From positions 1 to 33,289 of the forward strand of contig PAQA01000037.1 in the NCBI GenBank assembly GCA_002709155.1: 33,289 nucleotides of DNA, read 5' to 3'. Of this stretch, positions 7,756 through 10,173 are shown piece by piece (the first letter of the stretch is position 1; every line of letters starts with the position of its first letter). The position numbers and the translations under genes are program-made. The notes under the pieces were generated by a model. It was not told the origin of the DNA and made no database searches. It worked only from the letters and a program-made list of their open reading frames with translations. This stretch comes from Rhodospirillaceae bacterium. Lineage in GTDB: Bacteria > Pseudomonadota > Alphaproteobacteria > Thalassobaculales > Thalassobaculaceae.

Positions 7756-7866
7756 TTTTATAACATTGATATATCTGTAAATTAACTATAATTCAATATG
7801 CGTATCAAGATTATCTATTAACATTGTTTATGATCACCGCTTATAATGCACACAGGAGATAGATCA

Positions 7867-8274
7867 ATGGTCAAAACAGTCATTACTGAAAACTTTCCAT
7901 GGAGCATTAAAGGGATTTCTATCGAAGCTCGAAAACTTGCGAAAGAAGGAGCGGCGAAAGAAGGTCTCACTATTGGGCAATGGTTAAAAAAAATAATAAA
8001 TGAAGATCATGATGAAAGTTTCACCTCACCAAATAAATCATTGGGGGATGCTGACCCGGAAATTGCCGTTACAAAAACGCTAAAATCTGATTTATCCCAA
8101 CGCCGACCAATGAAAATCCACGATGAAGCTATGGTTCTTGAACTTATTACCCAAATTGAAAAAAGATACCTTGATCTGGCCACACCTATACAGTCTATCT
8201 TAAGTCAATTGTCGTTGCGGATAGATTTAGTTGAGTCCAAAATTAAGAAAGACACAGTAACCGATGATTTGTAA
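7867..8274 (+). CDS. Small protein carrying the PWS(I/V)KGI...IGxW module
   Basis: PWSIKGISIEARKLAKEGAAKEGLTIGQWLKKIIN parallels the N-terminus of the next ORF. Start at ATG 7867 follows AGGAG. Confidence 0.75.
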   Translation: MVKTVITENFPWSIKGISIEARKLAKEGAAKEGLTIGQWLKKIINEDHDESFTSPNKSLGDADPEIAVTKTLKSDLSQRRPMKIHDEAMVLELITQIEKRYLDLATPIQSILSQLSLRIDLVESKIKKDTVTDDL

Positions 8275-8356: not shown

Positions 8357-9430
8357 ATGGCCAGACTAATTGCCCCTTGGAGTGTCAAAGGTATTGATAA
8401 TGAAACGCGAGAATTAGCACGTCAAAAAGCCAAGAATTCTGGCATCAATATTGGGGCCTGGATAAATAGAGCAATACTCGACCACGGATCTCGAGAACAA
8501 TCTGGCGCTACCGACCTACATAATGTCGCGGCCGATAGTATTCCCGAAAACTCGTATTCCCAACGGTCTTTAAATGAACCCCCTAATGATATAATTTTTC
8601 AAAGATTGCAGCAATTAAATAAGAATCTAGATGGTGAATTGCGGCCAATTATGTTTGCTCTAAACAATCTAGCCCTGCGCTTAACGGCGGCGGAAGCATT
8701 GCAGAAAAAAGAACCAAAGAAAATAAATAGAATTGAACCGGTTGTTATAAATCCTGAAGTGGACGAGAACGCTAGAAACAAGATTATAAACGAAGAACTG
8801 GACACGGAAGAACTGATAAACGAGCAGTCGAAACCCAGTTTAGAGCGTCCAGATCCTTTTCCCCCGGCAGGCGATCTTAATGAAGGGGTAGATGTTCCAG
8901 AAACGCTTCGACAAAAAAGTAATATGGAATTGGAGAGTGTTCCAAACGCTGAAAATAAGCAGTCCAATGGCAAGAGCTTTAGTGCAAAAGCACTTATGAT
9001 TTTGCTTGGTTTGATAGTTTTTTCTGCTGTAGGAGCAGCATCACTTTACTTTGTCCCCCAAACAACAAACAAAATTGCGAAGGAGATAAGTGCAGCAACC
9101 GAACACCACTTAGACGCTGTATCGAAAACGTTAAATGACTCGCTGCTCTATTCGCAAAGATTACTCGAGTTATTTTTGGGGAAGAGCGCTGGTGTGGTAG
9201 AGACGGAAGAAAAATCCAAAATTTATAAAGGCTCGAGCAGTAACAAAGAGGGTTCCAAAACAACCGAAAGCAAACTAGGAAATAAAACACCACCTTCTGT
9301 TTCCAGTGGATTAGTGCTTTCTCATGTGGAAAACTCTGTCTCTAGAAATATCGTAGCTTTGAACGCTAATAAACAAAATAAGCCTATAAATAATTCTTTA
9401 CACGAGGAAAAACGCAAAAAAAAACATTAA
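8357..9430 (+). CDS. PodJ-like membrane protein, N-terminal part (frame ends just after an A9 run)
   Basis: LIAPWSVKGIDNETRELARQKAKNSGINIGAWINRAIL module; one TM segment ALMILLGLIVFSAVGAASLYFV. The supplied ORF begins at TTG 8336; ATG 8357 is a more likely start. Ends KRKKKH* immediately after A9. Confidence 0.75.
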   Translation: MARLIAPWSVKGIDNETRELARQKAKNSGINIGAWINRAILDHGSREQSGATDLHNVAADSIPENSYSQRSLNEPPNDIIFQRLQQLNKNLDGELRPIMFALNNLALRLTAAEALQKKEPKKINRIEPVVINPEVDENARNKIINEELDTEELINEQSKPSLERPDPFPPAGDLNEGVDVPETLRQKSNMELESVPNAENKQSNGKSFSAKALMILLGLIVFSAVGAASLYFVPQTTNKIAKEISAATEHHLDAVSKTLNDSLLYSQRLLELFLGKSAGVVETEEKSKIYKGSSSNKEGSKTTESKLGNKTPPSVSSGLVLSHVENSVSRNIVALNANKQNKPINNSLHEEKRKKKH

Positions 9431-10173
9431 AATTTCTACGGGCTAAAGCAAATAATGGTGATGCAGTTGCTCAGTATAAATTGGGCCTTCATTGGATAAA
9501 AAAAGAAAAAAGTCAAAACAATTATTTGAAGGCGGCTACTTGGTTTAAATTAGCCGCAGTGCAGGGCCTTAAAAATGCTCAGTACATTTTAGGTGTTCTT
9601 TACGATACGGGCGTTGGCTTGGCGAAAGACGAAAACCAAGCTTTTTTATGGTACCACGCAGCCGCTAATCGTCATCATCCTATGGCTCAATTTAATATAG
9701 CTAACTTTTACTTGGAAAGAGAAAACGGGAAAGATGATTTTGCAAATGCGCTGCGTTGGTTTGAATTGGCTTCAAAAAATGGAGTGGACGAAGCGGCGCA
9801 TAATGTCTCTATATTATCTATAGTGGACAAATTTTCCAAATTGAAAAAATCAGATATACTGAAGCTGTATACTAGAGAGCCGTCAAAACAACTGAAAAAG
9901 CTCTCCATGAGCTCCATCCCATACAAATTAAAAAATGGGGCGGAAACTCAAAAATTCGAAATCACTCAAAAGAAAGAGATAGAAAGTAGTTTGGTTCTAT
10001 CTATACAAAAAGAACTTCGGTTGGATGGTTTTTATTTAGGCCCATTAGATGGGAACTTAGGACCTAACACCAAAGCTGCGATCAGTGCGTATCAGCTGGA
10101 AAATGGACTTGTAGCGTCAGGGAAGCCATCAATCCAATTATTGGATTATATTAAACGCGAAACAAATAAATAG
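9424..10173 (+). CDS. SEL1-repeat plus peptidoglycan-binding (PG_binding_1) part, -1 frame continuation of the preceding ORF
   Basis: Frame is open back to the A9 run: TLKFLRAKANNGDAVAQYKLGLHWIKK...ATWFKLAAVQGLKNAQYILGVLYDTGVG (SEL1), then IQKELRLDGFYLGPLDGNLGPNTKAAISAYQLENGL (PG_binding_1). The supplied TTG 9481 start would cut into the first SEL1 repeat. Confidence 0.8.
   Translation, partial: TLKFLRAKANNGDAVAQYKLGLHWIKKEKSQNNYLKAATWFKLAAVQGLKNAQYILGVLYDTGVGLAKDENQAFLWYHAAANRHHPMAQFNIANFYLERENGKDDFANALRWFELASKNGVDEAAHNVSILSIVDKFSKLKKSDILKLYTREPSKQLKKLSMSSIPYKLKNGAETQKFEITQKKEIESSLVLSIQKELRLDGFYLGPLDGNLGPNTKAAISAYQLENGLVASGKPSIQLLDYIKRETNK

Follow-up and report, generated by a model that had tools for sequence, protein, structure and literature searches.

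Positions 8357–10173 of the window, a stretch of 33,289 nucleotides from the draft genome of a Rhodospirillaceae bacterium (contig PAQA01000037.1; assembly of 1.86 Mb, 71% complete), hold two reading frames that meet at a run of nine adenines. The run, the split and the -1 offset recur in related genomes, and both halves are under purifying selection. The balance of the evidence tips, by a modest measure, towards a single gene for a bitopic envelope protein, in which the poly-A template lies out of frame by -1 and is bridged by RNA polymerase slippage, with a short default product and a full-length minority form. Slippage of some kind at the run, at whichever level and to whatever end, appears very probable. 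In the proposed mechanism, RNA polymerase would slip on the A run. Transcripts of the templated length would be translated into the short membrane form, and those that gained one A (or lost two) into the full-length form. With the offset maintained, the cell would make the short form by default and full-length protein as a minority. Both forms would be useful to the cell, possibly in polarity. Automatic annotation would render such a gene as two fragments or as a pseudogene. To our knowledge, conserved poly-A frameshifts are few in bacteria beyond reduced endosymbionts.

Architecture of the split gene

An earlier inspection of this DNA, referred to here as the sequence-only reading, had described an open reading frame (ORF) beginning at 8357 and ending right after the A9 run, followed by a -1 frame with SEL1 and PG_binding_1 domains. 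Both were recovered, together with the zero-frame heptamer A_AAA_AAA and the GAGG motif upstream of the run that it had pointed out (Table 1). The zero frame passes the site as CAC GAG GAA AAA CGC AAA AAA AAA CAT TAA, and its product ends in KRKKKH directly after the run. The -1 frame opens 22 nt 5' of the run and stays open to 10173.

Table 1. Features of the split gene, in window coordinates
Feature	Position	Strand	Remarks
Zero-frame ORF, 357 aa	8357..9430 (including stop)	+	Short form: cytoplasmic N-module, transmembrane helix, periplasmic linker
PWSVKGI module and the conserved helix after it, LRPIMFALNNLALRL	8375..8719	+	From alignment; N-terminal
Predicted transmembrane helix	8990..9046	+	Residues 212–230, Kyte-Doolittle
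GAGG, Shine-Dalgarno (SD)-like	9404..9407	+	Distance of 8 nt to the run and 10 nt to the heptamer
A9 slippery run	9416..9424	+	Read in the window sequence
A_AAA_AAA heptamer, zero frame	9418..9424	+	Possible ribosomal slip site
Zero-frame stop, TAA	9428..9430	+	3 nt after the run
-1-frame continuation, 249 aa, TLKFLRAKANNGDAVAQYKLGLHW...	9424..10173	+	SEL1 repeats, PG-binding domain
Best-scoring SEL1 repeat (PF08238)	9577..9672	+	Profile match 2e-14
PG_binding_1 (PF01471)	9988..10143	+	Profile match 1e-9

Read as one protein, the product would comprise, in order, a cytoplasmic PWSVKGI module, a transmembrane helix, a periplasmic linker, SEL1 repeats and a PG-binding domain. The predicted helix stands out in the Kyte-Doolittle profile (maximum 2.42, with 1.05 for the second-best region), and the run lies 123 codons downstream of it. 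The PF01471 domain is the only one found in the assembly. The PWSVKGI module is present in 62 of 289 genomes of the class, being fused to long ORFs in many of them, and among the loci inspected across the class no further split PWSVKGI protein was found. AlphaFold models the N-module as helical with low confidence (pLDDT 70, pTM 0.30). Comparison with NCBIfam gave sub-cutoff matches only.

Conservation of the run and of the offset

All seven AT-rich orthologues carry a run of A9 to A12, and six of the seven are split with a common -1 offset; this sample spans two genera and few independent lineages, and the shared phase may partly reflect common descent. Two congeners of the window's bacterium (G000), namely G002 (CALIMD010000096.1, a metagenome-assembled genome) and G004 (QBVV01000006.1, SAR116 cluster bacterium AG-313-A07, presumably a single-cell genome from the style of its name), show the same split at A10 and A11, respectively, with a downstream identity of 84–85%. 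Three genomes from a second genus in the family, G011 (A10), G041 (A12) and G042 (A10), are likewise split at the run. The split orthologues come from independent assemblies. A more distant congener, G003, has A9 in the same linker, yet retains a continuous ORF of 628 aa. The view of one ancestral gene broken at a slippery A run, put forward in the sequence-only reading, agrees with this pattern. Relatives with a continuous ORF and no conserved homopolymer, which that reading would have taken as a sign of an assembly error or a strain-specific mutation, are confined to the GC-rich members of the family, whose continuous ORFs of about 700–1000 aa lack the run.

At the site itself, G002 reads CAT GAG GAA ATA ACG C-A10-C TAA and G004 reads C-A11-TAA. 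GAGG and AAAATT are 25 nt apart in the window, G002 and G004, so that the window's species has lost one base and gained another relative to its congeners, the two changes cancelling and the offset being held. In a tree built from the N-module and the SEL1 region, the seven genes from AT-rich genomes group together, and two changes are needed to explain the split on it: it was gained twice, or gained once and then reversed in G003. The distance from the run to the first SEL1 repeat differs between the two genera, which leans towards two origins of the split without proving them.

In three further genomes (G001, G020 and G043) the gene is missing; the neighbouring ispE is missing too, and gene loss was therefore set aside, the locus being probably unassembled. 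The orthologues of the second genus (L012, L150 and L151) stop after the SEL1 repeats and have no PG-binding domain. Directly 5' of the split gene, the window carries a short PWSIKGI paralogue (7846–8274, + strand) with an A8 run at 7986–7993; the paralogue is retained in G003, G004, G011, G041 and G042, and in GC-rich relatives PWSVKG proteins occur as tandem sets of two or three.

Maintained split or tolerated frameshift

The most serious rival to a maintained split, although we consider it unlikely, is a tolerated frameshift. Drift would have fixed the loss of a single A and slippage would merely rescue the gene, the long form being the only one that matters to the cell and the short form a waste product. 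Such rescue is documented in Buchnera and Blochmannia, where, much as in the window's AT-rich clade, poly-A tracts lie in out-of-frame genes that slippage keeps functional (PMC5009743). Those are reduced endosymbiont genomes, however. The window's assembly has 69 A/T runs with a length of nine or more, and only at the one at 9416–9424 is a gene broken with no new start codon behind the break; three look-alike sites are ordinary tandem genes, each with its own start. At one split per 69 runs, genome-wide gene decay at A runs was rejected as an explanation. A bias towards single-A deletions, together with descent within each genus, may account for the common -1 phase, and the in-frame state of G003 also fits a tolerated frameshift. 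Nevertheless, inserting or deleting one base in a tract this mutable would restore the frame, and in the window's species one-base changes have occurred and been compensated. Since six of the seven genomes nonetheless remain out of frame, we lean towards a split that is maintained, that is, programmed, rather than a long form that is merely rescued. Three further points weigh against the favoured reading of slippage at a maintained split: A9, the length found in the window, is avoided only mildly in coding sequence, the KKK context makes A runs likely in an AT-rich genome, and the two genera differ in where the run lies relative to the first SEL1 repeat.

Transcriptional versus ribosomal slippage

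Independent initiation of the downstream half was rejected: in six genomes, no ATG, GTG or TTG codon with an SD motif lies close to where the downstream frame starts. The first start candidates lie at least 18 codons into this frame in five genomes, and in G000 and G002 they fall inside the first SEL1 repeat. An internal start would also deprive the SEL1 and PG-binding part of its membrane segment.

The sequence-only reading had likened the site to programmed -1 ribosomal frameshifting of the Escherichia coli dnaX type, in which the ribosome would slip on A_AAA_AAA with help from the upstream GAGG. In the window's genus, each of the three split genomes has the zero-frame heptamer and GAGG, spaced much as in dnaX; A_AAA_AAG and A_AAA_AAC contexts are found in some relatives, and the offset is -1 throughout. 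This account nevertheless appears improbable: none of the three genomes of the second genus has GAGG, AGGA or GGAG just 5' of the run, no downstream RNA structure beyond that of shuffled sequence was detected in five genomes (z from -0.57 to 0.34), and tracts of 9–12 A are longer than a ribosomal site requires. Because GAGG is restricted to the window's genus and a downstream structure is absent, transcriptional slippage, the second suggestion of the same reading, is preferred. It would need nothing but the run and, with long A runs depleted in coding sequence and an in-frame run in dnaX of the clade, offers the best mechanism, beside which ribosomal slippage at the run may contribute.

Selection on both halves

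Both halves of the gene are under purifying selection. In close pairs of split genomes, dN/dS is 0.33–0.54 for the upstream half and 0.20–0.27 for the downstream half; the distant pair G011/G042 gives 0.13 upstream and 0.15 downstream, with dS near saturation. The bootstrap intervals exclude 1 everywhere, for both halves. The low downstream values suggest that this half was probably translated for most of the time since the split lineages diverged. When substitutions were placed at random at the observed number, the downstream frame stayed open in 1.2% of the simulations.

Phase variation, in which slippage at the DNA level would toggle the downstream half among cells, is very unlikely. The length of the homopolymer resembles that of contingency genes and one of the seven genomes is in frame; however, at least six of seven share one phase (p ~0.02 if the phases were free and equal, by arithmetic that ignores kinship), and the change that kept the phase in G000 involves bases outside the run. 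A sequencing indel or inactivation, which the sequence-only reading had left open and which a draft assembly might invite, is scarcely credible given the same split in six assemblies, the improbably open downstream frame and an omega far under 1 for each half; the split is neither an assembly error nor a recent mutation.

Relation to known systems

The closest precedent for the split gene is tssM1 of Citrobacter rodentium, in which an A11 run supports 20–25% slippage, both forms are required and their ratio is critical (PMC4256274). There too, an inner-membrane protein gene is broken just after a poly-A run and slippage adds a C-terminal domain. In tssM3 of Yersinia pseudotuberculosis, the run is in frame and slippage makes the short form (PMC4256274), the counterpart that would be expected of G003. 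Unlike the split gene, the tssM genes belong to a type VI secretion family, and slippage was measured in them, whereas we infer it here; in turn, the split gene, unlike tssM, has retained its split across two genera.

The comparison with PodJ drawn in the sequence-only reading holds for the architecture and not for membership of the PodJ family. In Caulobacter, the two forms PodJ-L (1–974) and PodJ-S (1–702) result from proteolysis, and a PleC-based chimera was stimulated by PodJ-L but not by PodJ-S (PMC8980812). Caulobacter PodJ shares with the split gene the succession of cytoplasmic part, transmembrane helix, periplasmic repeats of TPR/SEL1 type and PG-binding domain, as well as the pairing of a form that carries the periplasmic domains with one that lacks them, a pairing predicted for the split gene. 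However, its cytoplasmic part of about 635 aa contains six coiled coils and a disordered region (PMC8980812), a scaffold that the split gene lacks in its approximately 211 aa before the transmembrane helix. With so much shorter a cytoplasmic part, the window gene is PodJ-like by architecture and not, as far as shown, PodJ proper.

Slippage would likely give a membrane-only form and a full periplasmic form from one gene, as the earlier inspection had anticipated. Judging from its sequence, we would place the split gene among the poly-A slippage genes already known, and it probably yields forms resembling PodJ-S and PodJ-L, of which it would be a fixed-ratio counterpart. If so, polymerase stuttering, rather than proteolysis, would set the length ratios of a polarity-type scaffold. 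A literature search found nothing on point for PodJ with slippage or for dnaX slippage in alphaproteobacteria.

dnaX and long A runs in the same clade

In Thermus thermophilus, slippage on an A9 run in dnaX yields the short subunit, with stop codons near in the other frames (PMC1088944). The A9 run and the close stops are shared with the split gene, as are the two C-terminal length variants, which are predicted for it; the zero frame encodes the long form in Thermus dnaX and the short form in the split gene. A comparable arrangement was found in dnaX of the window's own clade. In the six AT-rich genomes of the clade where dnaX was found (L215, G000:C54:8475-10196, and L216–L220), the gene contains an in-frame run near residues 394–409, A10 in G000, G001 and G004 and A11 in G003, G011 and G043, with stops 0–10 codons away in both other frames. 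No such run is present in dnaX of G005 and G010. By this analogy, dnaX of the clade likely carries a Thermus-type slippage site for gamma and tau in alphaproteobacteria, and its Thermus-like design supports slippage in the window's clade. In G003 dnaX (L218; runs at 2714 and 2730), an additional A9 starts 16 nt upstream of the A11.

Long A runs are otherwise scarce in coding sequence. Across 349 kb of coding sequence in G000, runs of at least ten A were observed 0 times with 5.9 expected from synonymous codon shuffles (n = 100), and none of the 100 shuffles was as low; A9 occurs at 0.71 times expectation (7 of 100 shuffles as low) and T9 at 0.37 times. Avoidance of runs from about nine onward was used by Baranov et al. 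as a sign of slippage (PMC1088944), and it could also be selected by replication slippage.

Taken with dnaX, these observations allow a wider proposal, which we advance tentatively and at less than even confidence. In free-living marine alphaproteobacteria, polymerase slippage might serve as a standing regulatory device that sets the short-to-long ratio of an envelope scaffold resembling PodJ, in place of proteolysis or alongside it, and the gamma-to-tau ratio in dnaX, the run and its offset being selected across genera and other long A runs being purged from coding sequence. If this holds, a marine lineage that has received little study would share slippage as an expression device.

The A11 of the split gene in G004 is the sole A11 in that assembly. 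The same genome has an in-frame A10 within a 703-aa ORF (L116, G004:C61:10412-10421), a third candidate slippage gene.
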